Source of the DNA: an uncultured Lachnospiraceae bacterium
Lineage (GTDB): Bacteria > Bacillota > Clostridia > Lachnospirales > Lachnospiraceae
Assembly (NCBI GenBank): GCA_947626915.1
Contig: CANQUA010000022.1
Coordinates: 1-42,493 of the forward strand
DNA length: 42,493 bases
Reading direction: 5' to 3'
Below, one piece after another: positions 15,655-34,600 of the stretch. Below the pieces are notes generated by a model. That model was not told the origin of the DNA and did not search any database. It saw only the letters and a list, made by a program, of their open reading frames with translations. Position 1 is the first letter of the stretch. Each line of letters starts with the position of its first letter. Both the position numbers and the translations under genes were made by a program.

Positions 15655-15684
15655 CGGCGAAGGCTGGAATTTGGGGGAAGGAAA

Positions 15685-17209: not shown

Positions 17210-17238
17210 TTGACAAATTAGGAAAATATAACTATTAT
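17210..17238 (+). promoter_or_regulatory. Promoter of the glycan-uptake operon
   Basis: Perfect TTGACA (17210-17215), 17 bases, TATTAT (17233-17238) in an A/T-rich context, 87 bases before the first solute-binding protein gene. Confidence 0.8.
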
Positions 17239-17251
17239 AAGTTGTATGAAA

Positions 17252-17274
17252 TGGGTTTCATATATCGAAACCCA
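17252..17274 (+). promoter_or_regulatory. Candidate LacI-type operator at the start of transcription
   Basis: TGGGTTTC (17252-17259), 7 bases, GAAACCCA (17267-17274): a perfect inverted repeat starting about 14 bases after the -10 box. The sequence also contains ATGAAA-N4-TTTCAT overlapping its left half. The position fits roadblock repression by the adjacent LacI-family protein; as RNA it also folds into a hairpin. Confidence 0.6.
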
Positions 17275-17276
17275 CA

Positions 17277-17298
17277 ATGCGCAGGGCTTCTTGCGCAT
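17277..17298 (+). promoter_or_regulatory. Second hairpin in the operon leader
   Basis: ATGCGCA (17277-17283), loop GGGCTTCT, TGCGCAT (17292-17298). A perfect 7-base stem just before the A/T-rich ribosome-site region AAGGAGG. It may stabilise the mRNA 5' end. Confidence 0.5.
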
Positions 17299-17324
17299 AT
17301 TAATTATTTTTAAGGAGGAAAAAC

Positions 17325-19451
17325 ATGAAAAAGAAAGCATTGGCACTCGCGATGAGCACGGTTATGGTTCTTTCTTTGGCGGCCTGCGGTGGCGGAGGAG
17401 GAACGAGCAGCACGACTGCCGCGACGACCGCGGCGGCACAGACTACTGCGGCGGAGCAGACGGAGGCGGCCGCGACGACGGCAGCTGCTACGGAGGCGGC
17501 GACTACGGCGGCAGCCGCGGAGACGACGGCCCCGACGGTATCGGCCGAGCCGGTGGTGATCCGTTACGGCACGCACTGGGTGAACGATCTGGATCCCAAT
17601 TTTACGGATGAAGTGACCGGCGAATATACGATGGAAGAGTCCAAGAGACAGGCCGCTCTGGTAGCGCTGCAGGCGGTTAAGGACCAGCTGAATGTAGAGA
17701 TCGAGTTTTTACAGTACCCCGTTGACGTACAGACCGACCTGATGACCAGCGTGCTGGCCGGCGATCCGATCGTTGACCTGGCGCTGCTCTGGGGGGGCGT
17801 GGAGCCCAACATTCTGTCCCAGAACGTGCTTCAGGATCTGACCCCGTATAAAGACCTGTTTGCGGGCAATGAGTGGATGCTGAAGGATCCCATGTTCGGC
17901 GGCTACTATCTGCTGAACAACGAGTTCGGCATGACCTACTTCCCGCTGATCGTGAATCTGACCATGCTGGAGAAAGTGGACGCTCTGAAGGATGAGAGCG
18001 GAAAGACCATTTATCCCATGGATCTGATCGAGGAAGGCAACTGGACCTGGTCCACATTCAAGGATTATCTGTCCAAGGTGCAGGCGTATTACGGCAACAC
18101 CACCGCGGTGGACGGCGCCAGAGTGGATACCATGCAGGCGTATGAGACCGATCACCGTTACGCGGCGCTGGCAGCGATTCATGCCAACGGCGGCGGCATT
18201 TTCGTAGACGGTCAGGTGGCGGCGGATTCCGACGAGGCCATTGAGGGCGTGGCGTTTATCAAAGAACTGATGGATGCGGAGCTTCTGGTGGACTGCGGCC
18301 TGTATGACGACGGTTATACCCCCAGGTGGACAGAGGGAGGAGATGATTTCGGCCTTGGCAACACGGTATTTACGGACTGCCCCAACTGGCTGATCAGTTA
18401 CGAGGCTTCCCGCTGCGCGGACAGAGGCGAGAACATCGGTATCATTCCGTGGCCGAGGCCCGACGATGCGGCGGCGGATGCTCCTACCTATATGCAGAGC
18501 AACAACGGCGGCAACAGCGTTGCGATCCTGAAGGGCGTCAGCGAAGAGAAGACCAAACTGGCGATCCAGTCCTACATCATTTACTGGAATACATATTATC
18601 AGGCGCTGGGCGGCGTAGAGAACGCTCTGGATTATCCGTCCGCTATGGCGGCGTCTGATCTGGCGAACTACGGCGTTGATATTTACAATGAAGAATACGG
18701 CCAGCAGCTGATCGACTGCTATGCGTTCATTCTGGACCATATGAACACCAACTACGCCCATGCGATGGGTCTGTGGGACAGCCCCAGGTGGGAAGCGATC
18801 CTCGGCAAGTCCCTGTACGGCCTGGAGGGCATGAGCTCCTACGACGTTGCCATCAAGGCGAACATTACCGAACTGACCAACCGGATCGACACCATTTCCG
18901 CGGCCCTGCAGAGCGGTGAGATCCATGATACGTACGCTCCGACAATCACGTCGGAAGAGGCGCTGGTGGAGGCCGGCACGGATCCTGCTTCCGTAGACTG
19001 GACGCAGTACTTTACCGCAGAGGATACGGTGGACGGCGTTCTGACGGTTACGGCTGACGATATTACGGTGAGCGAGGATCTGGATCTGTCGGCTCCAGGC
19101 CAGTATGACGGCGCGGTGAAGCTCACGATCAAGGACTCCTCCGACAACAGCAGCAATTCTTCGATCAAAGTTATCGTTTATAACGGTTCCAATACTACGC
19201 CTCCTACGGTAGAACCGGCGGAAGAGCTTCCGACCGTAGCTCTGAACACCGAGACTTCCGGCATTGACTGGAGTTCGTTCCTGGCTTCCGCGACAGACGC
19301 CGACGGAATCGACGTGAAGAGCAGGGTGACGGCGGATCTGTCCACTCTGGATACCACGACTCCCGGCACCTACAGCGTGACGCTGACCGTGACGGACTAT
19401 GCGGGCAATATGGCTCAGGTAACGGTGGACGTAGCGGTTGTTTCCCAGTAA
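17325..19451 (+). CDS. Extracellular solute-binding lipoprotein with C-terminal Ig-like domains
   Basis: 708 residues. A lipoprotein signal peptide ends in LSLAAC (Cys21), followed by a Thr/Ala/Glu-rich linker to about residue 70, typical of clostridial surface lipoproteins. Residues about 75-540 are a family 1 type sugar-binding protein (YPVDVQTDLMTSVLAGDPIVDLALLWGG pattern, split for length: the motif MTSVLAGDPIVDLALL). Two beta-sandwich Ig-like modules of the DUF5011/BIg type follow at about 545-625 and 635-708, each ending in a GTYSVTLTVTDYAGN-like strand. Start ATG 17325 follows AAGGAGG. First gene of the operon, followed by a stem-loop that may raise its share of protein. The Ig tail is not usual for transporter binding proteins and may project the domain or hold a glycan. 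Confidence 0.9.
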   Translation: MKKKALALAMSTVMVLSLAACGGGGGTSSTTAATTAAAQTTAAEQTEAAATTAAATEAATTAAAAETTAPTVSAEPVVIRYGTHWVNDLDPNFTDEVTGEYTMEESKRQAALVALQAVKDQLNVEIEFLQYPVDVQTDLMTSVLAGDPIVDLALLWGGVEPNILSQNVLQDLTPYKDLFAGNEWMLKDPMFGGYYLLNNEFGMTYFPLIVNLTMLEKVDALKDESGKTIYPMDLIEEGNWTWSTFKDYLSKVQAYYGNTTAVDGARVDTMQAYETDHRYAALAAIHANGGGIFVDGQVAADSDEAIEGVAFIKELMDAELLVDCGLYDDGYTPRWTEGGDDFGLGNTVFTDCPNWLISYEASRCADRGENIGIIPWPRPDDAAADAPTYMQSNNGGNSVAILKGVSEEKTKLAIQSYIIYWNTYYQALGGVENALDYPSAMAASDLANYGVDIYNEEYGQQLIDCYAFILDHMNTNYAHAMGLWDSPRWEAILGKSLYGLEGMSSYDVAIKANITELTNRIDTISAALQSGEIHDTYAPTITSEEALVEAGTDPASVDWTQYFTAEDTVDGVLTVTADDITVSEDLDLSAPGQYDGAVKLTIKDSSDNSSNSSIKVIVYNGSNTTPPTVEPAEELPTVALNTETSGIDWSSFLASATDADGIDVKSRVTADLSTLDTTTPGTYSVTLTVTDYAGNMAQVTVDVAVVSQ

Positions 19452-19464
19452 ACAGGTCGGAACA

Positions 19465-19497
19465 GTCTCTGTGACCGGATAGAACCGAAACAGGGAC
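19465..19497 (+). terminator. Stem-loop between the first binding protein gene and the rest of the operon
   Basis: GTCTCTGT (19465-19472) pairs with ACAGGGAC (19490-19497) with one G-U pair; no T run follows directly. Such intercistronic hairpins after a binding-protein gene often act as partial terminators or mRNA stabilisers. Confidence 0.45.
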
Positions 19498-19548
19498 GGC
19501 GTCGAGCCTCCTGCCTTTTCTGTAAAAGAGCTTAAGAGAGGTAAGCCT

Positions 19549-22515
19549 ATGAAATCTGGCAAAATTAAAAAAATATTGGCCTGTTTTGCCGCAGTGATCG
19601 TGGTTGTTCTCCTGTTTGCGGCTATGAGAGACGATAAGGTTTTGCCTGGCGGCGCCGTCCCTCAGACCGGCAGCCTGGCTTATGAGGAGAATTATCAGCA
19701 GTATCTGACAGAGCATGGCTATGAAGAAAGTTATCAGCAGTACCTGATGGACCATAACTACGAGGGGACGCTGGCCGCGGATACCGTGGAAGTGGACCTC
19801 TCCGGTTATCAGGGTTCGGAGGATCTGCAGGCATACGAAGGGGAAGAGGGCATTGTGACAGAGGATGTGGGAACCATCAGCTGGAGTTTTCCGGTAAAGG
19901 AGAGCGGTTTCTATAACCTGGAGCTGGGATATATCACATTGCCCGGCACCACCTCCGCGATGCAGCGGAAGATCTATATTGACGGCGAGATCCCCTATGA
20001 GGCCCTTTCCCAGGTGACGATCAACCGGTACTGGGCCGACGAGGCGATCAAGGTTAAGAACGACAATGAGATCCGTCCGGAGAGTTATGAAGTTTTTACG
20101 GAAGTAAAATGGTTTGTGGAGGATTATCAGAGAAGGAATAACGAGCCGCTTGTGTTCTACCTGGACGCGGGTACGCACACGATCAGCTTCGAGGCGATCA
20201 AGGAGCCGATGGAGTACACTTCTCTGGTCTTCCGCGCCTGTGATCCGGTCCCGCATTACAGCGACGCGATCGCGTCGCTGCGCAGCCAGTACCAGGTTTA
20301 CGGCGGCGCTGCGGTGATCGGCCAGGCGGAACGGCGGGAGGGTGCTACGTCGGATATCATCAAGAGCGCTTCTTCCATTAATATTCAGAAGAATTATTCC
20401 GACAGCCTGCTGGAACCCTATCATCCCTACCATATCGTGTATAATACCATCGGCGCGGAGAACTGGTCCCTGCCGGGGGATTCCATCACCTGGGATGTAG
20501 AGGTTCCGGAGGAGGGGCTGTATGAGCTGACCTTCAAGGGCCGGCAGAATGTAAACCGGGGCGTTACCAGCTACCGCCGGCTCTATGTGAACGGTACGGT
20601 GCCCTATCAGGAAATGATGGCGGTGGGCTTCGGCTACCAGACGAAGATGAACCACTATACCGTGGCGGACGCGGAAGGCAGTCCGTACCTCTTCCATCTG
20701 AACGCCGGCCATAACACCATCACCCTGGAGAATGTCATGGGCCCCATGGGCAGCATCATCACCCGTGTGGAAGAGAGCCTGAGCGTGCTGAACAGTACCT
20801 ATCTGAACGTGATCCAGCTGACCGGGCAGGCGCCCAGCCGGTTCATTGACTACGAGATCGTGAGAAACATGCCGGATTTCCCGGACAGCATGGCGGAGCA
20901 GGCCCAGGTCCTGAACGGTCTGGTGGATGAGATCGTGGCCATCACCGGTGAAAAAGGCGAGAATACCACGCTGCTGGAAAAGATGGCGGTGCAGGCCGCG
21001 AGACTGGCGGAGGATCCGGAGGGCGTGACCGAGGAGCTGAACCAGCTGAAGAACAACATTTCCGCGCTGGGAACCTGGCTGGTGAACGTGGCGGATATGC
21101 CCCTGGAGCTGGATTACCTGGTGCTTTCGCCGGAAGGGGCGGAGCTGCCCAGGGTGCAGCAGAATTTCTTCGCCGGCCTCTGGAACGGAACGGTCCGTTT
21201 CTTCTCCACGTTCTTTGTGAAAGACAGTCAGATCTCTGAGAACGTAGAGGACGGGGACAACGCCATTAAGGTGTGGCTGGCTTCCTTCGGAAGAGAGCAG
21301 GCCCAGATGATCCAGAACATGATCGACGAGGAATTTACGCCGAATACGGATATTTCCGTGAACCTGCAGCTGATCCCTGTGGACGTGGTGCTGAGAGCCG
21401 CCCTGGCCGGCAACGGTCCCGACGTGGTCATCGGCCTGTGGCAGGGGACGATGCAGGATTTCGCCATGAGGCACGCGATCCTGGATCTTTCGAAGCTGGA
21501 GGGCTTCGACGAGGTTACGGAGCGTTTCTATGACAGTACTATCGAATCGGCCAGTTTCCAGGGAGGCGTTTACGGCATCCCGGAGCAGACCTCCTTCATG
21601 ATGATGTTCACGAGAGACGATATCCTGTCGGAGCTGGGACTGGAGCCGCCCAAAACCTGGACGGAATTCCTGGAGATGATCCCCCAGCTGCAGAAGAACA
21701 ATTACAACGCCTACATCCCCAATGTGCAGCAGACGGAGAACTCCCTGATCGGGACCTCCATCGACTATAACATGCACCTGTATCAGTCTCTGGTGCTCCA
21801 GAACGGCGGAGAAGTCTATCTGGGCGAAGGAAACGATTACGGGATCGAAAGCGGCCTTGCTTCCGACCAGGCCATGGAAGCGTTCAAGGACTACACGGAT
21901 TTCTTTACCAGCTACGGCCTGGATGTGCAGCTGGATTTCGCCAACCGTTTCCGTACCGGCGAGGTGCCGGTGGGGATCATCAACTATACCATGTTCAACG
22001 CGCTGGAGATCTTCGCGCCGGAGATCAAGGGCCTGTGGAGCTTCCACCCCCTGCCCGGCGTGGAGAAAGCGGACGGAACCGTCGACAATACCTTCGTGGT
22101 GGATACGGTGCAGTCGGTGATCATGGCGGCCACGGATCATGTGGACGCGTCCTGGGAATTCCTGAAATGGTGGACCGGCACGGACACTCAGCTGGATTTC
22201 GCCAACGCACTGGAGGCCCTGATGGGCACCAGCGCCAGGTATTCCGCCGCGGATCCGGAAGTGCTGAAGCAGCTGCCGTGGAGCAATTCGGAGCTTCAGA
22301 GCCTCCTGGGCCAGTTTGAGCATACCACGGGCCTGCCTGCGGTACCCGGCAATTACATGACGACCCGTATGGTACAGTATGCGTTTAACGACGTGGTATC
22401 GGATCACGCCAATCCCAGAGAGACGTTGTATCTGAATATCAAGGATATCAACGAAGAGCTTGACAGAAAGCGGGAAGAGCTGCATCTGTCCAGGCTGGAC
22501 GGAAAGGAGGACTAA
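19549..22515 (+). CDS. Large membrane-anchored solute-binding protein with carbohydrate-binding-like domains
   Basis: 988 residues, about twice the usual binding-protein length. An N-terminal transmembrane anchor (residues 9-26) lacks a lipobox at its end, so the protein is tethered rather than lipidated. A short duplicated motif (YEENYQQYL / YEESYQQYL) follows. Two related beta-sandwich modules, at about 85-235 and 285-415, each have a pattern of 'W.F.V...G.Y.L' then 'YIDGEIPYE' / 'YVNGTVPYQ' and 'LDAGTHTI' / 'LNAGHNTI', like carbohydrate-binding modules. A helical segment spans about 440-540. Residues 570-985 form a family 1 solute-binding domain (ALAGNGPDVVIGLWQG; TFVVDTVQSVIMAA). Ribosome site GAGAGG. 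It is followed by two permease genes and probably feeds them. Confidence 0.85.
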   Translation: MKSGKIKKILACFAAVIVVVLLFAAMRDDKVLPGGAVPQTGSLAYEENYQQYLTEHGYEESYQQYLMDHNYEGTLAADTVEVDLSGYQGSEDLQAYEGEEGIVTEDVGTISWSFPVKESGFYNLELGYITLPGTTSAMQRKIYIDGEIPYEALSQVTINRYWADEAIKVKNDNEIRPESYEVFTEVKWFVEDYQRRNNEPLVFYLDAGTHTISFEAIKEPMEYTSLVFRACDPVPHYSDAIASLRSQYQVYGGAAVIGQAERREGATSDIIKSASSINIQKNYSDSLLEPYHPYHIVYNTIGAENWSLPGDSITWDVEVPEEGLYELTFKGRQNVNRGVTSYRRLYVNGTVPYQEMMAVGFGYQTKMNHYTVADAEGSPYLFHLNAGHNTITLENVMGPMGSIITRVEESLSVLNSTYLNVIQLTGQAPSRFIDYEIVRNMPDFPDSMAEQAQVLNGLVDEIVAITGEKGENTTLLEKMAVQAARLAEDPEGVTEELNQLKNNISALGTWLVNVADMPLELDYLVLSPEGAELPRVQQNFFAGLWNGTVRFFSTFFVKDSQISENVEDGDNAIKVWLASFGREQAQMIQNMIDEEFTPNTDISVNLQLIPVDVVLRAALAGNGPDVVIGLWQGTMQDFAMRHAILDLSKLEGFDEVTERFYDSTIESASFQGGVYGIPEQTSFMMMFTRDDILSELGLEPPKTWTEFLEMIPQLQKNNYNAYIPNVQQTENSLIGTSIDYNMHLYQSLVLQNGGEVYLGEGNDYGIESGLASDQAMEAFKDYTDFFTSYGLDVQLDFANRFRTGEVPVGIINYTMFNALEIFAPEIKGLWSFHPLPGVEKADGTVDNTFVVDTVQSVIMAATDHVDASWEFLKWWTGTDTQLDFANALEALMGTSARYSAADPEVLKQLPWSNSELQSLLGQFEHTTGLPAVPGNYMTTRMVQYAFNDVVSDHANPRETLYLNIKDINEELDRKREELHLSRLDGKED

Positions 22516-22516
22516 G

Positions 22517-23419
22517 ATGGCGGGCAAAAAGGAATCTTTTGCAAAGATCTGGAAAAAACACAAAAATAAATATCTGATGATCGCTCCTTTCGGCATCATC
22601 TTCATTGTGTTCACGTTCCTGCCGGTATTAGTGGCCATATTCTTAAGCTTCACCAGCTTCAATATGGTGGAGATGCCGGAATTTGTCGGGCTTGAAAATT
22701 ATATCAAGCTGATTGTGTACGATCCGATTTTCCTGACTGCGGTCAAGAACACCCTGTTTTTCGCGATCATCACCGGCCCTCTCAGTTATATGATGTGCTT
22801 TCTGTTTGCCTGGATGGTCAACGACCTGCCCAGGATCCCCAGAGCCATTATGACCCTGGTGTTCTACGCGCCATCCATTTCCGGCAACGCGTACCTGGTG
22901 TGGAAGCTTCTGCTTTCCTCCGACTCCTACGGCTGGGTGAACGCGTGGCTTTTGAAACTGGGCGTGATCCGGGAGGCCGTAACCTGGCTGGTGACCAAGG
23001 AATACATCATGCCGATCCTGATCATCGTGCAGCTGTGGCTGAGCCTGGGCGTCAGCTTCCTGACCTTTATCGCCGGTTTCCAGAACCTGGATAAGTCCCT
23101 TCTGGAGGCGGGCAGCGTGGAGGGCGTCAAGAACCGCTGGCAGGAGCTCTGGTACATCATTCTGCCGTCCATGAAGCCGCAGCTGATGTTCGGCGCGGTG
23201 ATGCAGATCACCAGCTCCCTGTCCGTGTCCCAGCTGTCCATCGACCTGGTGGGCTTTCCGTCCGTCAGCTATGCCGGCCATACGATCCTGACGCATCTGC
23301 ATGACTTCGGCAACGTGCGTTACGAGCTGGGGTACGCCTGTACCATTGCGGTGATCCTGTTCCTCATTATGCTCTTCTGCAATATTCTTGTGCAGAAGCT
23401 GCTGCGCAAGCTGGGCTAA
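22517..23419 (+). CDS. Sugar ABC transporter permease (MalF/UgpA type)
   Basis: 300 residues with about six membrane helices, first at residues 18-40 (YLMIAPFGIIFIVFTFLPVL). The EAA loop that contacts the ATPase is seen as EAGSVEGVKNRWQELW-YIILPSMKP near residues 195-220. It carries glycan fragments inward with the MalG-type partner encoded next. ATG 22517 follows GGAAAGGAGG and lies two bases after the stop of the binding protein gene; an in-frame upstream ATG inside that gene is ignored. No ATPase gene is in the locus, so a shared MsmX/UgpC-type ATPase encoded elsewhere is expected. Confidence 0.92.
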   Translation: MAGKKESFAKIWKKHKNKYLMIAPFGIIFIVFTFLPVLVAIFLSFTSFNMVEMPEFVGLENYIKLIVYDPIFLTAVKNTLFFAIITGPLSYMMCFLFAWMVNDLPRIPRAIMTLVFYAPSISGNAYLVWKLLLSSDSYGWVNAWLLKLGVIREAVTWLVTKEYIMPILIIVQLWLSLGVSFLTFIAGFQNLDKSLLEAGSVEGVKNRWQELWYIILPSMKPQLMFGAVMQITSSLSVSQLSIDLVGFPSVSYAGHTILTHLHDFGNVRYELGYACTIAVILFLIMLFCNILVQKLLRKLG

Positions 23420-23431
23420 GGAGGCGTGGAT

Positions 23432-24319
23432 ATGAAGGTAATCGCATTTATCAAAAACTGGTACTACCGCAGAAAATTCAAACGCCGCAACCGCAGCATC
23501 GGCGGCGACCTGATCCTGATCCTGGTGCTGGGCTTTTTCGGGATCTTCAGCCTGTTCCCGCTTCTGTATACCCTGACCAGCGCGTTTAAACCGTTTTCAG
23601 AGATTTTTATGTATCCGCCCAAGCTGACGGTGGAGAATCCGACTCTGAACAATTTCTTCGACCTGGCGACGATCATCGAGGATTTCACCGTACCGTTTTC
23701 CCGGTACGTATTCAATACCCTGGTGATTACGGGCGTGGGAACCTTCGGCACGGTGATGCTGGGTTCCATGGCGGCCTACCCGCTGGCGAAATATGAGTTT
23801 CCGGGTTCCAAGCTGATGAGCAATATCATCGTTTACGCCCTGATGTTCAGCACCTCGGTGACGGCCATCCCCAACTACCTGATCATGAGCGCGCTGGGCA
23901 TCATCGATACCTACTGGGCCGTGATCCTGCCGGCCGTAGGAGGAACGCTGGGACTGTACCTGATGAAGAACTTCATGGTGCAGGTGCCCGACGATATGCT
24001 GGAGGCGGCCAAGATCGACGGCTGCTCGGAATGGGGGATCTTTTTCAAGGTGGTCATGCCGCTGTGCAGACCGGCCTGGATCACCCTGGTGATTCTGTCC
24101 TTCCAGCAGATGTGGGGAACCACCGGCGGCGTGTTCATTTACTCGGAAGAGCTGAAGCCTTTGAGCTACGTGCTTTCCCAGCTGGTAAGCGGGGGCATCT
24201 CCCGTACCGGCGTGGCTTCGGCCGTATCACTGCTCATGTTGATCGTACCGATCGGCGTATTCGTGTTCTCGCAGAGCAACGTCATCGAGACCATGGCTAC
24301 GTCCGGTATCAAGGGATGA
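23432..24319 (+). CDS. Sugar ABC transporter permease (MalG/UgpE type)
   Basis: 295 residues, six predicted membrane helices, with the MalG-type opening (LILVLGFFGIFSLFPLLYTL) and the EAA loop EAAKIDGCSEWGIFFKVVMP near residues 190-210. ATG 23432 is chosen because AAGGAGG (23418-23424) is seven bases upstream; a GTG at 23426 is in frame but too close. Partner of the permease before it. Note the basic N terminus (RRKFKRRNR). Confidence 0.92.
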   Translation: MKVIAFIKNWYYRRKFKRRNRSIGGDLILILVLGFFGIFSLFPLLYTLTSAFKPFSEIFMYPPKLTVENPTLNNFFDLATIIEDFTVPFSRYVFNTLVITGVGTFGTVMLGSMAAYPLAKYEFPGSKLMSNIIVYALMFSTSVTAIPNYLIMSALGIIDTYWAVILPAVGGTLGLYLMKNFMVQVPDDMLEAAKIDGCSEWGIFFKVVMPLCRPAWITLVILSFQQMWGTTGGVFIYSEELKPLSYVLSQLVSGGISRTGVASAVSLLMLIVPIGVFVFSQSNVIETMATSGIKG

Positions 24320-24329
24320 GGGGCGCGCT

Positions 24330-25874: not shown

Positions 25875-26500
25875 AGGAAAACGCGAAGGAAAAGTTATTC
25901 TATCTGAAGAGATCCATTGTCCATCCCTTTGACGCCTTCTATGAGATCCGGTTCCGTGGCAAAGGAAGCGCTTCCCTGGCGGTGATCATCCTGCTGGTGT
26001 TCGGCGTGCTGCAGTGCGTCAGCTACCAGTACACGGGATTCATCATCAACTTCCATGACCTGGCCGGCATGAACAGCATTTCCATTTTCCTGACCTGGGT
26101 GCTGGGATTTGTTCTGTTCATCGTCAGCAACTGGTCGGTCACGACCCTGCTGAACGGCAAAGGGAACATGACGGATATCCTGACGGTGGTGTCCTATTCT
26201 CTGGTGCCCCTGACCTGCACGATGATTTTCCAGGTGTTCGCCAGCAATTTCATCATTGCGGAGGAAGCCATGATCGTATACGTGATTACAGGCGTGGGCG
26301 CGGTATGGTCCCTGTTCATGCTTCTGGCGGGACTGTGCGTGATCCATGAATACGGCTTCGGCAAAACCCTGGTTTCCATCCTGCTGACCTTTGTGGCGGC
26401 GGCGATCATTATGTTCCTGGGCATCCTGTTCTTCACCCTGATCGAGCAGATGGTGACGTTCGTCATTTCGGTGGGCCAGGAATTTATCCGCAGACTGTAG
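25871..26500 (+). CDS. YIP1-family integral membrane protein
   Basis: 209 residues with about five hydrophobic helices (starting near residues 36-56, LAVIILLVFGVLQCVSYQY). The N terminus KRSIVHPFDAFYEIRFRGKGS is the cytoplasmic signature of bacterial YIP1-domain (DUF1282-like) proteins, and NWSVTTLLNGKGNMTDI and SLVPLTCTM are typical of the core. Function is not established; the gene is translationally coupled to the NHL/TPR gene and followed by the DUF5696 gene, so these three probably act together in the membrane. Confidence 0.8.
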   Translation: MKENAKEKLFYLKRSIVHPFDAFYEIRFRGKGSASLAVIILLVFGVLQCVSYQYTGFIINFHDLAGMNSISIFLTWVLGFVLFIVSNWSVTTLLNGKGNMTDILTVVSYSLVPLTCTMIFQVFASNFIIAEEAMIVYVITGVGAVWSLFMLLAGLCVIHEYGFGKTLVSILLTFVAAAIIMFLGILFFTLIEQMVTFVISVGQEFIRRL

Positions 26501-26516
26501 AAAGGAGAGTGAGAAG

Positions 26517-29159
26517 ATGGCGGTGGTCCTTTCAATGCTTCAGAAAGTGAAACATACTCTGAAGAAATTTTATGATAAGCACACGATCCGCAGAATCGCA
26601 CTGACGGTCCTGGCGGCAGTCGTTTTGATCTACGTGGCCGTCAGCATCCCGGCCTGGTCTCTGAAGAGCGAGACCCTCCCGGTCACTTCCTCCAGACAGC
26701 CGGAAGCGGGAACGGAGATCAGCCTGGACGCGGGCAAGGTGGAGGTGGCCTCAAACGGCGGCAGCGTCCTGACGGTGGATACGTCCAATATGACGTTCGA
26801 GCTTCAGGATGAGGCCGGGTCCAAATTCCGCAGCTACGCCAACGGCCAGTCCGGAAGCGAGCTGGCCCTCCTTTCTCTGACCTATCTGGGAGAGGACAAT
26901 AACCTGTACGAGTGGAACTCTTATGACAACTGCGTGGCGTTTTCCAGCTATTCCATGGAGCAGATCGAAAACGGCGTCAAGATCAGCATCAATCTGAACG
27001 AGGGCGAGTCCAACCGTTTTTACGAGTATCTTCCCAGAAAGATGGGAATCGACACCTACGAGGAAATGTTCGTAGGGACCCTGAACCGTCTGATGGACGA
27101 GGGCAGCCTGGACCGGGCCGCAGGGGAGCGGTACCTGACCACCCTGTCCCTGGTATACAAGCGGAGCCTGACGGAGGAATGCTACGCGGTCACTTATAAC
27201 GGCACTCCGCCGACCAGCGCCACCAATCAGCTGATCGAGGTGACCAGGCTCGTGGGCTACACCACGGAAAAACTGCTGGAGGACGGCGAGACCTTCGGAT
27301 TCTCCGTGGATTTCGCGGAGCCGGCCCAGTTCGATCTGGCGGTGGAACTGACCCTGGACGGGGACGGCAATCTGCTGGTCCATGTGCCGACCGCCAGCAT
27401 CGTCAGCTATAACGATTATTATACGCCTCAGAACCTGACCCTTCTGCCCAACTTCGGAGCGGTGACCAAAGATCAGTATGAAGAGGGAGAGATCCTGGTG
27501 CCGGACGGCTGCGGGACTCTGATCGATTTCAATTCCTATATCGCCAGCGTCGCGGAGTACAAGCGGCCGATATACGACAACGATTTTTTCAGCGATTATT
27601 ACTATATGCCGGAATACGGCGAAGAACTGCTCATGCCGGTGTTCGGAGCGCTGTACGGCCCGGCCGCCGAGACGGAAAAAGGCTTTCTCGGCATCATCGA
27701 GGAAGGCGCCCGGACGGCGATCCTGAACGTAAAGCTGGCCAGCGCCCAGGCGGACAGTTCCAATTACAACAAGGTATATCCTTCCTTTGATATCGCCCAG
27801 TATAAGCGGGTGAAGATCAACGGGGAGTACAGCACGGACACAGGCACCTACCTGGTGAACGCCGGAGAGCAGGATCTGGATCTGAGCGTCAGGTACCAGC
27901 TGTACGACCGGAACGTGACGTATTTCGATCTGGCGAAAGGCTATCAGGCCTATCTGGCGAAGACCGAGGGCATAACCCCGTCCTATGACGCGGGGGACGC
28001 CGGCCTGTATCTGGAGGTAGTAGGCGGCGTGAATATCGCGTCGCGCTTCGTAGGGATCCCCTACAGCAAGGCGTATTCCATGACTACCTACGAGGAACTG
28101 CAGGAGATCATGGGAGAACTGGACGGCATCCAATACCAGCTGCAGTACAACGGCGCCTTTAACGGCGGCTGGAACGGCGAGATGAACCGGGGCGCGGATC
28201 TGGCCGGGCAGAACGGGAGCCGGTCGGAACTGAAATCTGCCCTGTCCCTGGCGAAGGAGAAAAATATCCCGCTGTATCTGCAGGTGGCGCTTACCCAGGT
28301 CTGGGAGAGCGGAAACGGGTTCAGGGCTTCCCGGCACGCGCTGCGGGATTACGCCAACGACGAGGTGCAGCTGTCCCGCTATCAGCCGGTGCTGGGGATC
28401 CTCAACAGCAACCTGAACGACGGGATGAACCATGACGAGTACTATCTGCTGTCCCCCAGGTACTTAAGCGCTGTGACGGACGCTTTTGTAAAGGAAGCGG
28501 GAGACTATGAAAACCTGGCCGTCTCGGATCTGGCAGGGATGTATTACGCGGATTACCGCTATGAAAACTACATCAGCGGCGAGACCGGCAACAACATCCT
28601 GGAGGAGAACCTGACGAAGCTGGCCCAGGGCAGATCGCTGGCGCTGACCAATCCGCACATGGATAAGATCGGGTACGGCAGCGTGGCCACGGACATTTCC
28701 AGGGAAAGCAGCGACTACGCCACATTCGGCGCGACGATACCTTTCCGGCAGCTGGTGATGAACGGTCTCGTGGATTACACGACGGAGAACGTGAACCTTT
28801 CCAGCAAGAACGCTTCCTATTTTATTCTGCAGGCGGCGGAGCTGGGCGCGCTTCCCAAATTCCTTCTGACCTATAAAAATGTGGACGTGCTGAAGGATTC
28901 CGATTATAATTATCTGTTCTCCGCGCAGTTTGAGCTGCTGGAGGATAAGCTTCGGTCCGTCTATGAAGAGTGCGCCGCGATCCGCAGCCGGATCGGAACC
29001 AGCGAGATCACCGGCCACGAGGTGCTGGAGGACGGCGTCTACCGGACGACTTATCAGGGCGGAACCCAGGTGCTGGTCAACTACAATCTCTATGACGTGA
29101 CCCTTTCTGACGGCACGGAGCTGCCGGCGGAAGGCTATCTGATAAAGGAGGGGAACTGA
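26517..29159 (+). CDS. DUF5696-type membrane-anchored extracellular protein
   Basis: 880 residues. An N-terminal transmembrane helix (about 28-46, LTVLAAVVLIYVAVSIPAW) anchors a long extracytoplasmic part. I recognise it as the DUF5696 kind from its arrangement and sequence style: a beta-rich N-terminal half (ETFGFSVDFAEPAQFDLAV, LVPDGCGTLIDFNS) and an alpha/beta C-terminal half (YQLQYNGAFNGGWNGEMNRG; KEKNIPLYLQVALTQVWESG; YYADYRYENYISGE), which looks like a TIM-barrel glycosidase fold. That fold is an inference; catalytic residues cannot be assigned. ATG 26517 follows AAAGGAGAG. One base separates its stop from the next permease gene. Its place between two permease pairs suggests a role in glycan handling at the cell surface. 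Confidence 0.75.
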   Translation: MAVVLSMLQKVKHTLKKFYDKHTIRRIALTVLAAVVLIYVAVSIPAWSLKSETLPVTSSRQPEAGTEISLDAGKVEVASNGGSVLTVDTSNMTFELQDEAGSKFRSYANGQSGSELALLSLTYLGEDNNLYEWNSYDNCVAFSSYSMEQIENGVKISINLNEGESNRFYEYLPRKMGIDTYEEMFVGTLNRLMDEGSLDRAAGERYLTTLSLVYKRSLTEECYAVTYNGTPPTSATNQLIEVTRLVGYTTEKLLEDGETFGFSVDFAEPAQFDLAVELTLDGDGNLLVHVPTASIVSYNDYYTPQNLTLLPNFGAVTKDQYEEGEILVPDGCGTLIDFNSYIASVAEYKRPIYDNDFFSDYYYMPEYGEELLMPVFGALYGPAAETEKGFLGIIEEGARTAILNVKLASAQADSSNYNKVYPSFDIAQYKRVKINGEYSTDTGTYLVNAGEQDLDLSVRYQLYDRNVTYFDLAKGYQAYLAKTEGITPSYDAGDAGLYLEVVGGVNIASRFVGIPYSKAYSMTTYEELQEIMGELDGIQYQLQYNGAFNGGWNGEMNRGADLAGQNGSRSELKSALSLAKEKNIPLYLQVALTQVWESGNGFRASRHALRDYANDEVQLSRYQPVLGILNSNLNDGMNHDEYYLLSPRYLSAVTDAFVKEAGDYENLAVSDLAGMYYADYRYENYISGETGNNILEENLTKLAQGRSLALTNPHMDKIGYGSVATDISRESSDYATFGATIPFRQLVMNGLVDYTTENVNLSSKNASYFILQAAELGALPKFLLTYKNVDVLKDSDYNYLFSAQFELLEDKLRSVYEECAAIRSRIGTSEITGHEVLEDGVYRTTYQGGTQVLVNYNLYDVTLSDGTELPAEGYLIKEGN

Positions 29160-29160
29160 C

Positions 29161-30072
29161 ATGAAGAAGGGCAGGAAAAAATTATCTTTCCGGACCATGT
29201 GGAAAATCCATGGAGTGATCTTTGTAAGTCCTTTCCTGATCGGATTTGTGGCGTTTTTCCTGCTGCCGCTGTTCCGGACGTTTTACTACTCGTTCAACAA
29301 CGTCGGCGTAGGCGACCAGGGCGGTATGACCTTTGAATGGATCGGTATCCAGAACTATATCAATCTGTTTACCACGGAAGTCACCACGACCAATACGACG
29401 ATGGCCAGGCTCTTTACGGAGGAAAATTCCACCATGCTTCTGAGCCTGCCGCTGATCGTGATCTTCAGCCTGTTCATGGCGCTTCTGGCCAACCAGAAAT
29501 TCAAGGGCAGAGCCATCGTGCGGCTGCTGTTCTTCCTTCCCATTATTTTGGGGATCGACGTGGTGATGGAGATGCTGACCATCACCACCGGAGGCGGCAC
29601 GACCCTGGACACGGGAAGCAACCTGCTGAGCGGCAGTTATGTGACGATCTTCCTGGTGAGAACGCTGAACGTGCCCATGAGGATCCTCTATCCGATCATG
29701 ACCTACGTGGAGAACATTTTCGACCTGATCTCCCAGGCGGGCGTGCAGACCCTGGTCTATCTGACCGCGCTGCAGTCCATCAGCCCCAGCCTCTATGAGG
29801 TGGCCAAGATGGAAGGCGCCACGGCTTACGAGACGTTCTGGAAGGTGACCATTCCGTCCATTATGAATATCACTTTCTTTGTGGTGATCTACACGATCGT
29901 GGATCTGTTCCTGAAATCCTCCATCGCGGAGGAAGCGTATGCGTTCGCGTTTACGCAGGGCAAGATCGGCATCGGTTCCGCGCTGTCCATCGTCTATGTG
30001 GGGAACGTGATCCTGGTACTGGCGGTCGCGGCGCTGCTTCTCAGAAAGGTGGTAAAGAAGAATGAAAAATAA
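29161..30072 (+). CDS. Sugar ABC transporter permease (MalF type), second pair
   Basis: 303 residues with six predicted membrane helices, the first at about 20-42 (IFVSPFLIGFVAFFLLPLF). EAA loop: EVAKMEGATAYETFWKVTIP near residues 215-235. ATG 29161 lies one base after the DUF5696 stop and follows AGGAGGGG. It differs clearly from the first MalF-type protein, so it is not a recent copy; the two pairs may serve the two binding proteins. Confidence 0.92.
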   Translation: MKKGRKKLSFRTMWKIHGVIFVSPFLIGFVAFFLLPLFRTFYYSFNNVGVGDQGGMTFEWIGIQNYINLFTTEVTTTNTTMARLFTEENSTMLLSLPLIVIFSLFMALLANQKFKGRAIVRLLFFLPIILGIDVVMEMLTITTGGGTTLDTGSNLLSGSYVTIFLVRTLNVPMRILYPIMTYVENIFDLISQAGVQTLVYLTALQSISPSLYEVAKMEGATAYETFWKVTIPSIMNITFFVVIYTIVDLFLKSSIAEEAYAFAFTQGKIGIGSALSIVYVGNVILVLAVAALLLRKVVKKNEK

Positions 30073-31069
30073 GGTAAGTATGTCGGAGATGGATGCCGGC
30101 CTGGCGATCTACCTGTTTAAGAACAAGTTTAAAAAGGGCGCGGTAAAATTCTTTTCCATGGTTTTGATCCTGGGGCTGTGCTTTACCATCGTATATCCGA
30201 TCCTGAGCCTGGTGCCGATCGTTTTCTCCAGCGTGGAGGATCTGGGGAACCCCAACGTGATATGGATCCCGCTGGAATTCTCGACCGTCAGTTTCAAGGC
30301 GGCGACCCGGATGATCATGCCCCAGGGGATTATGACCATGGTGAAATCCGTTCTCTACGCGGTCGGCATCATGGTGCTGCAGGTGTTCTTCTCCGCCATG
30401 GTGGGCTATTCCCTGGCGCGCGTGAATTTCTGGGGACGGAAGCTCGTGTTCGGCATGGTGATCCTGGTGTTTCTGCTGCCCAGGCAGTCCCTGCTGCTGG
30501 CCCAGTATATCTCCTTCGTACACTTTGATGTGCTGGGGATCATGAACCTGTTCACGAAGGCGGGAGAGATCAACCTGATCAACAATCCCGTGGTGCTGGT
30601 GATGCTGGCGATCTTTGGATTCGGCGTGAACCAGAGCCTGTTCATCTTCCTGTTCAGTCAGTTCTTCAAGAACATACCGAAGGAACTGGAAGAGGCGTCC
30701 CTGATCGACGGCTGCGGCTTTTACCGTACCTATTTCAGGATCATGCTGCCCAACGCCGTGCCCATCATTTCTACGGTGGCGATCCTGTCCTTCGTGTGGA
30801 ACTACGGCGATACCTACTACACGAACTATTTCAACCCGCAGGGCAGCTACATGAGCACGCTGCTGTCCTCCACGTTCATTTCGGCCAATAAGGATTATGT
30901 CCTGAACGCGCTGCGGACCTGGTACGACGTTCCGGTCGCGACCGACCTGGCGTTTGACGCGGTGAAGCAGGCGGGGGCTTTGGTCTTCCTGATTCCGCTT
31001 TTGATCGTGTATCTGATCGGTCAGAGAAAACTGGTGGAAAATATGGAGAACTCCGGTCTGGTCGGATAA
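30062..31069 (+). CDS. Sugar ABC transporter permease (MalG type), second pair
   Basis: 335 residues, slightly long for a MalG-type protein, with an extended cytoplasmic N terminus (about 35 residues) before the first helix. EAA loop: EEASLIDGCGFYRTYFRIML. The start overlaps the preceding permease gene by 11 bases, with AGAAAGG upstream. Last permease of the locus. Confidence 0.92.
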   Translation: MKNKVSMSEMDAGLAIYLFKNKFKKGAVKFFSMVLILGLCFTIVYPILSLVPIVFSSVEDLGNPNVIWIPLEFSTVSFKAATRMIMPQGIMTMVKSVLYAVGIMVLQVFFSAMVGYSLARVNFWGRKLVFGMVILVFLLPRQSLLLAQYISFVHFDVLGIMNLFTKAGEINLINNPVVLVMLAIFGFGVNQSLFIFLFSQFFKNIPKELEEASLIDGCGFYRTYFRIMLPNAVPIISTVAILSFVWNYGDTYYTNYFNPQGSYMSTLLSSTFISANKDYVLNALRTWYDVPVATDLAFDAVKQAGALVFLIPLLIVYLIGQRKLVENMENSGLVG

Positions 31070-31087
31070 CCGACGGTGTGAAAATCG

Positions 31088-31129
31088 GCCGGGTCCGGCG
31101 GCGCGGTCAGACGTACCGGCGGGCCCGGC
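31088..31129 (+). other. GC-rich stem-loop before the GH30 gene
   Basis: GCCGGGTCC (31088-31096) pairs with GGGCCCGGC (31121-31129) with one G-U pair and a 24-base loop; no T run. It may reduce read-through into the glycosidase genes or stabilise the upstream mRNA. Confidence 0.4.
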
Positions 31130-31152
31130 GTATGAGGGAGCGGAACAACAGA

Positions 31153-32754
31153 ATGAGGAAAAAAACGATTGCTGCGGGAATCTGCCTTGCTTTGATGGCA
31201 GTTGTACTTGGCGGCTGCGCCCCGGAGGCGACCGGGGAGACATCTCCCTCCGCGGAATCTTCGCAGGAGACATCTTCCTCCGCGGAACCTTCGCAGGAGC
31301 CGTCTTCCATACAGGAGAGCGTTATGCAGGAAACAGAGACAGAGACTCAGACTTCCGGCGCGGATCAGTATCATAAAATGAAGGTGGATGTCAGTACGGT
31401 CTATCAGACCATAGAGAGTTTCGGTACCAGCGGCGCCTGGTGGAGCCAGTATGTGGGCGGTTTTGACGACGATCCCTACGGAGAGACCGGGATCAGCACC
31501 AGGGAGCAGATCGCGTCCCTGCTGTTTGACCGGGAGACAGGGATCGGGCTGACCTGCTACCGTTATAATCTGGGAGCCGGTTCCGCGGAGAGCCGGAAAG
31601 GGACCTATTCCGATATCCATCGCCGGGCCCAGAGCTTTGAGACGGAACCCGGCGTTTATGACTGGAGCAAGGACGCCAACGCGGTTTGGTTTTTGAACCG
31701 CGCGGTGGAGCTGGGTGTGCAGGAAGTGGTTCTTTTCTGCAACAGCCCCCTGGAGCGTCTGACCGATAACGGCATGGCCCAGCTGACGGCCGGGACCAAG
31801 AGCAATCTTTCCCCGGAAAACTACGGAGAATTCGCAAAGTATGTCATGGATGTGGCGGAGCATTTCGTGGGCGAAGGGATCCCGGTGAAGTTCATTTCCC
31901 CGATCAACGAACCTCAGTGGGAATGGACCAGCGGTCAGGAAGGCGCTCATTATGAGCCGAATCGGACCAGAGAGGTGTACCTGGCCTTCCTGGATGAACT
32001 GGAAAGCCGGGATGCTTTGGCGGGAGTGGAACTGTCCGGCCCGGAAAGCGGCGAATGGGGCGGTCAGGCCACGATCAGCTATACCGAGGCGATTTTGGGG
32101 GACGAAAGACTGGCGGAGCATTTTACGGCCATTGATAATCATTCTTACTGGTCGGACGACAACGCCAAAAAGTCTTTTGCCAATTATATGAAAGTCTATC
32201 ATCCGAATGTGAAGCTGCGGATGAGCGAGTGGTGCGAGATGGTGAACGGTTCCGACGTGACGATGGATTCCGCGTTTCACCTGGCCCAGGAGATTGCGAA
32301 GGATATGCGGATCCTGAACGTGGTATCCTGGCAGAACTGGGTGGCCGTGGCGCCGGGAGGCTATCGGGACGGTCTGATCTACATCGACGAACCCAGCCAT
32401 AAGTTCCGCGCCCTGAAACGGCTTTGGAGTTTCGGTAATTTCAGCCGCTACGTCCGTCCGGGTTATGTCCGGGTGGACATTCAGGCGGACAGCAGAGCCA
32501 TGGATGAAATGCTGCCGACGGCCTTCGCCGGCGTCAATGAGGCGGGGGAAGAGGAGCTGGTCATGGTGTTTATCAATGAAGATGTGCTGCCGCAGGAGTT
32601 CTTGCTGGAAGGCTGCGGTGAATACAGCCGTATCGCCTGCTATGAGACCTCCGATGCCAATGATCTGGCCTGTGTGCTGGAGGCGGATTACAGTTCAGAT
32701 ACCCTGGTGACGATCCCGTCCCGGAGTGTGACCACGGTAATTCTGACAAAATAG
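31153..32754 (+). CDS. Secreted GH30-family glycoside hydrolase (lipoprotein)
   Basis: 533 residues. Lipoprotein signal peptide ending LGGC (Cys22), then a Ser/Glu/Thr-rich linker to about residue 70. The catalytic (beta/alpha)8 barrel shows the clan-A pattern: acid/base Glu253 in SPINEPQWEW and nucleophile Glu359 in RMSEWCE, preceded by the N-terminal ESFGTSGAWWSQ. A beta-sandwich C-terminal region follows. GH30 enzymes include beta-1,6-galactanases, beta-1,6-glucanases and xylanases; the sequence resembles the galactan-active kind, but the subfamily is not certain. ATG 31153 was chosen because the signal peptide starts there; earlier in-frame ATGs at 31078 and 31132 would add a very basic tail. 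It acts outside the cell. Confidence 0.85.
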   Translation: MRKKTIAAGICLALMAVVLGGCAPEATGETSPSAESSQETSSSAEPSQEPSSIQESVMQETETETQTSGADQYHKMKVDVSTVYQTIESFGTSGAWWSQYVGGFDDDPYGETGISTREQIASLLFDRETGIGLTCYRYNLGAGSAESRKGTYSDIHRRAQSFETEPGVYDWSKDANAVWFLNRAVELGVQEVVLFCNSPLERLTDNGMAQLTAGTKSNLSPENYGEFAKYVMDVAEHFVGEGIPVKFISPINEPQWEWTSGQEGAHYEPNRTREVYLAFLDELESRDALAGVELSGPESGEWGGQATISYTEAILGDERLAEHFTAIDNHSYWSDDNAKKSFANYMKVYHPNVKLRMSEWCEMVNGSDVTMDSAFHLAQEIAKDMRILNVVSWQNWVAVAPGGYRDGLIYIDEPSHKFRALKRLWSFGNFSRYVRPGYVRVDIQADSRAMDEMLPTAFAGVNEAGEEELVMVFINEDVLPQEFLLEGCGEYSRIACYETSDANDLACVLEADYSSDTLVTIPSRSVTTVILTK

Positions 32755-32851
32755 GCTGTTCGGTTCCCCGCTGCGCGCAGGGAGGCGGCTGCGTTCCGGC
32801 AGTCTGCCGGCGCGGGCGGAGGCAAAATACCAAGCCTATGAGGAGACGAAA

Positions 32852-34600
32852 ATGGGACAGACTTTTGAAATAAAAGATAATTTTTACTTAAACGGAAGAC
32901 CTTATCAGATCCGCTCGGGAAGCATACATTATTTTCGCGTTGTTCCGGAATACTGGCGGGACCGGCTGGAGAAGCTGAAAAGCATGGGCCTGAATACGGT
33001 GGAAACCTACGTCCCCTGGAATGTACACGAACCCCGCAAAGGAGAATTCTGCTTTGAAGGGATGGCGGATATAGTCCGGTTTGTGAAGCTGGCGGGAGAG
33101 CTGGGACTTTACGTGATCCTGCGGCCCTCGCCCTATATCTGCGCGGAGTGGGAATTCGGAGGGCTCCCCGCCTGGCTTTTGCGTCAGGACGGGCTGCAGG
33201 TGCGGAGCTCGTCGCCCGATTTCCTGAAGCATGTGGAGGAATACTACCGGGTACTGCTCCCCCTGCTGAAACCTCTGCAGATCACCGAAGGCGGCAATGT
33301 GATCCTGATGCAGGTGGAAAATGAGTACGGACATTTCGCGGACGATACGGAATATATGGAAGCGCTGCGGGACATGATGCGCGAAGGCGGCATTACGGTG
33401 CCGCTGATCACCTCCGACGATCCCAGGGAAGAAAGCCTGGGCTGCGGAAGCGTGGCGGGCGCGCATCCTACCGGCAATTTCGGTTCTCAGGCTGCGCAGC
33501 GTCTCAAAATACTGGAAGATTTTGCCGGAGGCGGCCCGCTGATGTGCTCGGAGTTCTGGGTCGGCTGGTTCGACCATTGGGGCAACGGCGGCCATATGCG
33601 GGGCGACCTGGAAAAGAGCGCCGCAGATCTGGAGGAGCTGCTGCGCCGGGGCCATGTGAACATTTACATGTTCATCGGCGGCACCAATTTCGGTTTTATG
33701 AACGGTTCCAATTATTACGACTGCCTGACGCCGGACGTCACCTCCTACGATTATGACGCGGTGCTGACGGAAGCGGGAGACTTTACGCCCAAGTATTACC
33801 GGTACCGCGAGATTATCGGCAGATACGCGCCGGTGCCGGAGGTGAAGCTGAGCACGCGGATTCGGCGGCGGGCCTATGGCAGCGCGGCCGTGAAGGAAAA
33901 GGTGGGGCTTTGGCAGTCCCTGGATCTTCTGTCGGAGCCCAGCGAAAGCCCCAATCCCCAAAGCATGGAGCGGCTGGGGCAGAATTACGGCTACATCCTG
34001 TATGTCTCGCCCATCCGCCATGAGCGCCGGCTGGAGCGGATCCGGCTGTGGAAAGCCAACGACCGGGCCAATCTGTTTGTGGACGACAAGAGACTCCTGA
34101 ATCTCTATGACCGGGAGCTTTTGGAGGAGCATCCTCTGGAGGAAGAGGTGCGGGAAGGGCAGGAGCTGCGGATCCTGGTGGAAAACATGGGCCGCGTGAA
34201 TTTCGGCCCCCGGATGAACGAACAGAGGAAGGGCATCGACGGCAGCGTGCAGATCAACGGCCATATCCACACTCATTGGAAGCAGTATCCGCTGCCGCTG
34301 GACCGTTTGGACGCGCTGGATTACAGCAGAGGCTATACGGAGGGCATGCCCGCCTTTTACCGGTTTGAGCTGAATGTGGAGGAAACGGCCGACACGTTCC
34401 TGGAGCTGGAAGGCTGGGGCAAAGGGTGCGTGTTCGTCAATGGCTTCCACATCGGACGCTTCTGGGAGATCGGTCCCCAGAAACGGCTGTATATCCCCGC
34501 TCCGCTGCTGAAGGAAGGGCTCAATGAAATCGTGGTCTTCGAAACCGAGGGCAAGGCGGGGAAGGAGATTGCGTTCTTTGGCGAGCCGGACATCGGCTGA
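32852..34600 (+). CDS. Beta-galactosidase, glycoside hydrolase family 35 (BgaC-like)
   Basis: 582 residues, no signal peptide, so cytoplasmic. The GH35 barrel covers about residues 8-325: entry motif GSIHYFRVVPEYWRDRL, acid/base Glu158 in QVENEYGHF and nucleophile Glu234 in CSEFWVGWFDHWG. Two beta-sandwich jelly-roll domains follow, with the conserved C-terminal GKGCVFVNGFHIGRFWEIGP. The short bacterial form of this family (compare BgaC) prefers beta-1,3-linked galactose. It should split imported oligosaccharides. ATG 32852 follows GAGGAGACG. Last gene of the locus before a terminator. Confidence 0.94.
   Translation: MGQTFEIKDNFYLNGRPYQIRSGSIHYFRVVPEYWRDRLEKLKSMGLNTVETYVPWNVHEPRKGEFCFEGMADIVRFVKLAGELGLYVILRPSPYICAEWEFGGLPAWLLRQDGLQVRSSSPDFLKHVEEYYRVLLPLLKPLQITEGGNVILMQVENEYGHFADDTEYMEALRDMMREGGITVPLITSDDPREESLGCGSVAGAHPTGNFGSQAAQRLKILEDFAGGGPLMCSEFWVGWFDHWGNGGHMRGDLEKSAADLEELLRRGHVNIYMFIGGTNFGFMNGSNYYDCLTPDVTSYDYDAVLTEAGDFTPKYYRYREIIGRYAPVPEVKLSTRIRRRAYGSAAVKEKVGLWQSLDLLSEPSESPNPQSMERLGQNYGYILYVSPIRHERRLERIRLWKANDRANLFVDDKRLLNLYDRELLEEHPLEEEVREGQELRILVENMGRVNFGPRMNEQRKGIDGSVQINGHIHTHWKQYPLPLDRLDALDYSRGYTEGMPAFYRFELNVEETADTFLELEGWGKGCVFVNGFHIGRFWEIGPQKRLYIPAPLLKEGLNEIVVFETEGKAGKEIAFFGEPDIG

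Follow-up and report, generated by a model that had tools for sequence, protein, structure and literature searches.

The 42,493-nucleotide stretch of DNA analyzed here (the window; positions 1 to 42,493 of contig CANQUA010000022.1, assembly GCA_947626915.1, from an uncultured Lachnospiraceae bacterium) contains a putative glycan-uptake locus of eleven co-directional genes, extending from 17325 to 34600 on the + strand. With a probability that we place near 0.6, this locus represents one copy of a conserved, multi-copy cassette that would specify two CUT1-type importers of the ATP-binding cassette (ABC) class, both acting on the same glycan and sharing one ATPase, with a membrane-bound glycan-holding assembly supplied by the second of two gene modules. 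Eight genes form the core: module A encodes a solute-binding protein (SBP2) and permease pair 1 (pA1 and pB1), and module B encodes an NHL β-propeller/TPR protein (NHL), a YIP1-domain protein, a DUF5696 protein, and permease pair 2 (pA2 and pB2). A further SBP gene (SBP1) precedes the core, and genes for members of glycoside hydrolase families 30 and 35 (GH30 and GH35) follow it. Gene identities were assigned from Pfam and NCBIfam. The successive intergenic distances are 97, 1, 6, 10, -4, 16, 1, -11, 8, and 97 nt (computed with ATG 22517 as the pA1 start and ATG 25871 as the YIP1 start), with overlaps of 4 nt for NHL/YIP1 and 11 nt for pA2/pB2. The initial annotation had counted ten genes rather than eleven; the genes that it named, their common strand, their short gaps or overlaps, and the separation of the two permease pairs by the NHL/TPR, YIP1, and DUF5696 genes were all as it described. 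Gram-positive polysaccharide utilization loci bring together a glycan-degrading enzyme, a transporter, and a regulator, and here a LacI-type regulator gene, the ABC genes, and the GH30 and GH35 genes stand side by side.

Conservation of the core was assessed in three sets of loci. The family set consisted of 54 stretches plus the window, left out G016 contig fragments and matches under ∼66 bits, and held 50 full DUF5696 loci, the window included; five weak, GH129-like matches outside cassettes (L084-L088) were classed as having no full DUF5696. The phylum set comprised 40 loci, taken from 36 genomes out of the 39 that exceeded the cut-off, with three candidates scored per genome, and left out the present genome, two weak matches, and most further copies. 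The third set, from named genomes and anchored on pA1, kept the best 80 of at least 592 relatives and so leans to close relatives. Of the 71 complete loci in that set, 70 carried SBP2, pA1, pB1, NHL, YIP1, DUF5696, pA2, and pB2 in this order (a count redone using clean NHL and YIP1 profiles), the sole exception being L110, and the visible parts of nine loci that end at contig edges agreed with the core order. The search for a conserved gene order that the initial annotation had proposed was thus positive. NHL and YIP1 were detected in 71 of 73 pA1-anchored loci, the misses being L090 (contig end) and L151 (very long DUF5696 frame), and pA2 and pB2 were detected in 70 of 70. For the two DUF5696-anchored sets, ratios omit loci with too little flanking sequence, and positions were taken from stop codons. 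There, NHL and YIP1 lay upstream of DUF5696 in 47/47 family and 38/38 phylum loci (85/85 overall), and pA2 and pB2 lay downstream in 47/49 and 38/38 (85/87 overall); the two pair-2 exceptions look like a split or broken pA2 frame (L058) and a pair 2 that moved ahead of SBP2 (L083). Chance clustering is ruled out because the arrangement recurs in nearly all loci examined, and five cassettes in this genome together with many elsewhere exclude an assembly oddity.

The record titles of the pA1 relatives include Paenibacillus, Neobacillus, Gracilibacillus, Thermobacillus, Lachnospiraceae, and Oscillospiraceae, along with metagenome-assembled genomes labeled Acholeplasmataceae, Erysipelotrichaceae, and Anaerolineaceae, labels that may be wrong. 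DUF5696 matches above 300 bits were found in 31 of 150 family genomes and 37 of 398 phylum genomes (the present genome counted), with up to five copies per genome, and DUF5696 exceeded its cut-off in none of 14 control genomes. A phage origin of the middle genes was discarded, as the DUF5696 and NHL proteins, which were the two covered by the scan, had no PHROG match.

The core is best described as two modules, SBP2 with pair 1 and NHL-YIP1-DUF5696 with pair 2, because their order varies. Module A lies directly upstream of module B in 37/37 family and 24/30 phylum loci, and the five genes of module B stay together apart from L058 and L083. Since module A can stand elsewhere while module B holds together, the middle three genes belong with permease pair 2. 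NHL and YIP1 are fused, NHL first and YIP1 last, in 25 of 125 loci, and neither occurs without its partner across the same 125; in the phylum set, a single frame matches both in 22 of 40 loci. SBP1 has no fixed position: it precedes SBP2 in the window, as it does in many Paenibacillus loci, and many Lachnospiraceae carry it after pB2. Two loci (L206 and L208) carry several SBP genes in tandem behind pB2, as if several binders fed one importer. A DUF624 membrane protein is encoded immediately before SBP2 in another (L157:6286-6963), and similar frames of 210-240 residues stand ahead of SBP2 in further Lachnospiraceae loci. For the eight core genes, the distance matrices agreed with Spearman coefficients of 0.76-0.95 (n = 114 complete loci), which, with no outside baseline, speaks for co-inheritance and not for function. 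Mean identities fell from pA1 (57%) and pB1 (53%) through pA2 (40%), SBP2 (39%), and pB2 (39%) to NHL (37%), YIP1 (34%), DUF5696 (30%), and SBP1 (25%); the strongest divergence, in DUF5696 and SBP1, is as expected for glycan-facing parts.

Both permease pairs have the makeup of CUT1 importers, each with two different subunits, and the EAA loop is kept in all four permeases of the window. Across the four permease families (n = 114), the loop Glu is present in 98-100% and the Gly in 99-100% of sequences, and its last Pro is found in 100% for three families and 75% for pB2. Because these loops, which dock the MalK/MsmK-type ATPase, are intact, both pairs are expected to work. pA1, pA2, pB1, and pB2 are each monophyletic (14 loci sampled per group, alongside 17 other permeases). 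The possibility that one pair is a recent copy of the other was not supported, since in the midpoint-rooted tree the smallest clade containing both pA (or both pB) families includes all other permeases of that type (8 and 9, respectively).

A Pfam/NCBIfam scan found no ATPase gene within the locus, in line with the initial annotation; this absence is ordinary for Gram-positive sugar importers. According to the available parts of two published accounts, several such importers share the ATPase MsmX (PMC5730181), and multipurpose ATPases energize several sugar importers (PMC7658222). A search of the genome for the OB_MalK domain yielded two candidates, one of which (on C56) adjoins its own permeases. 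The other is a MalK/MsmK-type protein of 370 residues (G000:C10) that stands alone, with no neighboring permease, and it may energize both pairs of the cassette.

SBP2 is a CUT1-type binding protein by its match to SBP_bac_1 (4e-22), with the SBP domain at residues 588-881, an N-terminal membrane segment at 8-26, no clear lipobox by eye, and a weak CBM35-like (carbohydrate-binding module) stretch at 298-398 that falls under the Pfam cut-off. The nearest PDB relative of its SBP domain is Lin1841 (2.9e-29), which we take to be a β-1,2-glucooligosaccharide binder of Listeria innocua. Two SBP2 frames in other genomes (G284:C93 and G439:C40) have one internal TAG, which could reflect a pseudogene, a sequencing error, or a recoded stop. 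SBP1 had no direct match to any SBP model or PDB chain; it is called an SBP on the strength of a profile built from it, which retrieves SBPs (e.g., L037:5728-7128, SBP_bac_8, 6e-20). The NHL/TPR protein, which matches NHL propellers and TPR designs in the PDB, has an N-terminal hydrophobic segment and a C-terminal membrane helix at 470-488; for YIP1, no PDB relative was found by sequence.

The DUF5696 protein is GH129-like in sequence and mostly lacks the corresponding catalytic pair. A profile of 56 cassette DUF5696 proteins matched DagB (8rzg and 8rzk, 4.7e-10; 5opq, 5.2e-10) and NagBb (5wzn, 1.5e-7), and hhalign against the five GH129-like proteins L084-L088 gave a probability of 99.9 over 477 columns, the likeness spanning the central and C-terminal regions. 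A membrane-like segment lies within the first 110 residues of 110/122 cassette proteins and of none of these five. One of the five, L088, is close to NagBb (7e-271) and another, L084, is distant (1.7e-22); the alignments anchor the scored Asp and Glu to NagBb Asp435 and Glu478, the latter presumably being the acid/base residue. In one alignment, the acid/base column is never acidic in the 122 cassette proteins (Gly in 66, Pro in 33, Ala in 20, and Ser in 3), and in the window protein this place is taken by T711 or P713, depending on the alignment. DagB requires Asp202, Asp486, and Glu517, and its Asp486 corresponds to NagBb Asp435, as stated in the accessible part of PMC5698469. Asp and Glu occur together in only 9 of the 122 cassette proteins, so these are best read as GH129-like and mostly incapable of the GH129 mechanism. 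The processing role that the initial annotation gave to the middle proteins is not supported, given this result; we suggest instead that cassette DUF5696 proteins bind glycan. The proteins of L084 (8876-10555) and L088 (9098-10981), like those of L085-L087, are 560-641 residues long and have no membrane segment; both match Pfam DUF5696 and yet align with the NagBb Asp and Glu, which suggests that the Pfam family also captures likely enzymes besides the cassette proteins.

In the mechanism that we favor, the LacI-family regulator would free the promoter once the glycan arrives, and GH30 at the cell surface would cleave the polymer to oligosaccharides. SBP1, SBP2, and DUF5696 would hold the chains at the membrane, with DUF5696 having lost its catalytic pair and binding rather than cutting, and the NHL/TPR and YIP1 proteins would provide a scaffold beside pair 2. 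SBP1 would belong with module B, and the two modules may be physically associated. Both permease pairs would import oligosaccharides, powered by one shared MsmK-type ATPase encoded elsewhere, and GH35 would remove galactose inside the cell; SBP1 and the enzymes would be exchanged according to the glycan.

Several observations weigh against this reading. In six of the 30 phylum loci, the modules are reordered or parted (module A behind module B in four, non-adjacent in two); outside these 30, module A lies behind the cassette in L212, and L200, L203, L207, and L216 have no SBP2 beside the cassette in the visible sequence. SBP2 genes were found in all nine such genomes checked, including those of both non-adjacent cases, and every one of the nine has at least one SBP2-bearing contig with no DUF5696 match among those listed (three DUF5696 candidates were scored per genome). 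Being partable and swappable, the modules may be two separate, co-regulated ABC importers for two products of one polymer (e.g., long and short oligosaccharides), with the middle genes serving pair 2 only, an alternative to which we give slightly less than even odds. It is in keeping with the two full permease pairs with EAA loops, the two SBPs, and the separate monophyly of the four permeases, among which the smallest pA1 plus pA2 clade holds all 8 other A-type permeases; the invariable placement of module A directly upstream in the family set and the shared history of the eight genes argue the other way. The condition under which the initial annotation would fail, middle genes occurring widely apart from transporters, did not hold for DUF5696, whose loci keep pair 2 almost without exception. 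Within this genome YIP1 is confined to cassettes (5/5), but the broad Pfam YIP1 family occurs in 7 of 14 control genomes and is thus not cassette-specific; because loci were chosen by DUF5696 or pA1 similarity, lone NHL-YIP1 loci would be invisible outside this genome. Of the two binding proteins of the initial annotation, SBP2 is identified by direct match, the window's SBP1 solely through the profile search. The best PDB match of GH30 (3clw) bears no activity name and does not resolve the GH30 subfamily. Finally, the nucleophile-position Asp is kept in 91/122 cassette DUF5696 proteins, including D671 of the window, and another alignment places Glu or Asp in the acid/base column of 41/122 (Glu in 23). 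With the Asp this frequent and that column acidic in 0 or 41 of 122 proteins, some members may be active, whether by the GH129 mechanism or by a different one.

These residues bear on whether DUF5696 might be a working glycosidase of the GH129/GH101 group, anchored in the membrane, so that glycan processing would fall to the middle of the cassette. The clear homology to the GH129-like group, the retained Asp, and the 9 proteins with both residues would fit; moreover, the catalytic residues of DagB differ partly from those of NagBb in the accessible part of PMC5698469, so catalytic residues shift within the group. Given that so few of the 122 have both residues and that the acid/base place of the window protein is occupied by T711 or P713, we consider an active enzyme improbable. 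The NHL/TPR, YIP1, and DUF5696 proteins might alternatively act as a sensor that reports the state of glycan or transporter to regulation, with no part in import. β-Propeller and TPR modules frequently mediate protein contacts, and to our knowledge no transport role has been assigned to YIP1 proteins, which is compatible with sensing. Set against it are the constant adjacency of pA2 and pB2 (85/87), while upstream regulators vary, and the lack of any signaling domain in the three proteins by Pfam/NCBIfam; a sensor is, in our judgment, very unlikely. A bolder extension of the two-importer cassette is doubtful: all eight proteins would assemble into a single membrane supercomplex that works as an ABC importer with two channels, its two permease pairs sharing one ATPase and its inactive GH129-like protein and NHL/TPR-YIP1 scaffold threading or holding long glycan chains between the pairs. 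Such a supercomplex, whose SBPs and enzymes could be exchanged, would be a counterpart of SusCD in Gram-positive bacteria.

The core is constant while enzymes are exchanged, both within this genome and among related loci. The genome has five DUF5696, five YIP1, and five SBP2 genes, every one at a cassette. The end of contig C32 (SBP2-pA1-pB1 and the NHL start) and the small contig C104 (the NHL end, YIP1, DUF5696, and pA2) probably belong to a single cassette that the assembly broke in two. The four others, the window included, share 39-52% pA1 identity, and their nearest pA1 relatives are all in other genomes (94%, 77%, 95%, and barely 53%); by these identities, the four are old lineages. Their neighbors differ: GH30 and GH35 in the window; GH32 on C8; GH29, GH3, and a GH2 mannosidase-like protein on C1; an arabinose isomerase some kilobases off on C3; and, for the split cassette, a GH43-like protein on C32. 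In a Pfam scan of flanking frames in named loci (42/45 downstream and 63/133 upstream; the frames are mechanical and some are perhaps not genes), the commonest enzyme was GH26 (9 downstream, 17 upstream), followed by GH10 (6 and 3), and the regulators in the 63 upstream frames varied (LacI in 6, AraC-type response regulators in 3). One locus (L157) carries an extra GH26-CBM35 protein, and L157 and L118 each have a CBM65 protein.

For the copy in the window, the enzymes point to a galactose-containing substrate. The GH30 protein matches 3clw (6e-33) and an endo-β-1,6-galactanase (1.1e-12) in the PDB and is probably a surface endo-glycanase. The closest PDB match of GH35 is 4e8c (1e-170), which we take to be the β-1,3-galactose-specific BgaC, and the protein, having no hydrophobic segment, is probably cytoplasmic. 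These relationships and the presence of GH30 in the related loci L091, L093, L094, and L095 suggest a β-galactan, most likely (side chains of) type II arabinogalactan, although host galactose-containing glycans may be the substrate instead.

The control region carries a promoter-like site followed by a LacI-type palindrome. Of the strong promoter claimed initially, the site quality and the adjoining LacI palindrome stand; the number of promoter-like matches (14, compared with 10.2 in shuffles, sd 3.3) is not above chance, so the call depends on the quality of the site and on the operator. By eye, TGAAACGGGTTTCA follows a promoter-like sequence in L089, the nearest orthologue, and also occurs in the paralogue on contig C32 (L194), where it lies ahead of the gene preceding SBP2, and a related element, TGAAAC/TGGGTTTCA, was spotted in both. 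The exact palindrome GGTTTC-N7-GAAACC had no match among 195 loci. The LacI-family regulator gene probably starts near 15.69 kb and the GH30 gene likely at 31132 or 31153.

Table 1. Positions of the control elements and genes of the glycan-uptake locus in the window.
Feature	Positions	Strand	Remarks
LacI-family regulator	15358..16716	+	open frame; Pfam LacI and Peripla_BP_3
σ70-type promoter	17210..17238	+	TTGACA-17-TATTAT; 11/12 consensus positions; best of 14 matches in 19.5 kb
LacI-type operator	17247..17273		TGAAATGGGTTTCA at 17247-17260 and overlapping palindrome GGGTTTC-7-GAAACCC; just downstream of promoter
SBP1 (P0001)	17325..19451	+	solute-binding protein; C-terminal Ig-like domain; lipobox-like N terminus (by eye)
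SBP2 (P0002)	19549..22515	+	988 residues; core gene 1, module A
Permease pA1	22517..23419	+	core gene 2, module A
Permease pB1	23426..24319	+	core gene 3, module A; alternative ATG 23432
NHL β-propeller and TPR protein	24330..25874	+	core gene 4, module B
YIP1-domain protein	25871..26500	+	209 residues; five hydrophobic segments; core gene 5, module B
DUF5696 protein	26517..29159	+	GH129-like body; N-terminal membrane helix 27-45; core gene 6, module B
Permease pA2	29161..30072	+	core gene 7, module B
Permease pB2	30062..31069	+	core gene 8, module B
GH30 protein	31078..32754	+	Glyco_hydr_30_2, 9e-53; lipobox-like N terminus (by eye)
GH35 β-galactosidase	32852..34600	+	Glyco_hydro_35, 2e-115; no hydrophobic segment

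Elsewhere in the window, genes for a helix-turn-helix protein and then a serine/threonine kinase-domain protein (34938-36956, +) sit between the glycan locus and genes for two neighboring proteins with nearly identical N termini (36998-39769 and 40027-42492, both +). The first of these ends in choline-binding-type repeats; the second, which resembles it by eye, runs past the window end. The sole Rfam match, a COG2827 RNA (3582-3651, +; 56.3 bits, gathering threshold 49.1), lies outside the locus.

Among the closest known systems are CUT1 importers that share MsmX/MsmK, such as AraNPQ-MsmX of Bacillus subtilis (PMC5730181), with which the cassette has in common an SBP, two EAA-loop permeases, and a locus that holds no ATPase gene; a candidate MalK-type ATPase is encoded elsewhere in its genome. 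The cassette differs from that type in its two permease pairs, in the three conserved proteins between them, and in an SBP of 988 residues that is membrane-anchored and has an extended N-terminal part. A β-glucan locus of Blautia producta also groups glycosidase, transporter, and regulator genes but, as far as the available part of PMC10318527 describes it, contains single genes for an SBP, a permease, and an ATP-binding protein, in contrast to the constant eight-gene core and changing enzymes seen here. The GH129 and GH129-like enzymes (NagBb, 5wzn; DagB, 5opq) are distant sequence kin of DUF5696, which differs in being mostly membrane-anchored, in its place inside a transporter cassette, and in its non-conserved catalytic pair. 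SusCD systems of Bacteroidota similarly join surface capture proteins, an importer, and variable glycosidases; here, however, Pfam found neither a TonB-dependent SusC nor a SusD among the 11 genes, and the energy is expected to come from an ABC ATPase. The term DUF5696 was absent from the literature searched, and no paper on this cassette was found there; because subscription journals are largely missing from that literature, its silence is weak evidence of novelty.

The cassette-type DUF5696 protein is widespread and stands beside varied glycosidases, and the cassette looks like a widespread, little-described machine by which Gram-positive bacteria would import complex sugars of plant or host origin. 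If this is true, Gram-positive gut and soil bacteria would import glycans through a standard machine whose parts now appear in annotations as unconnected permeases and hypothetical proteins, and the reason for two permease pairs and the role of the middle proteins would become testable.

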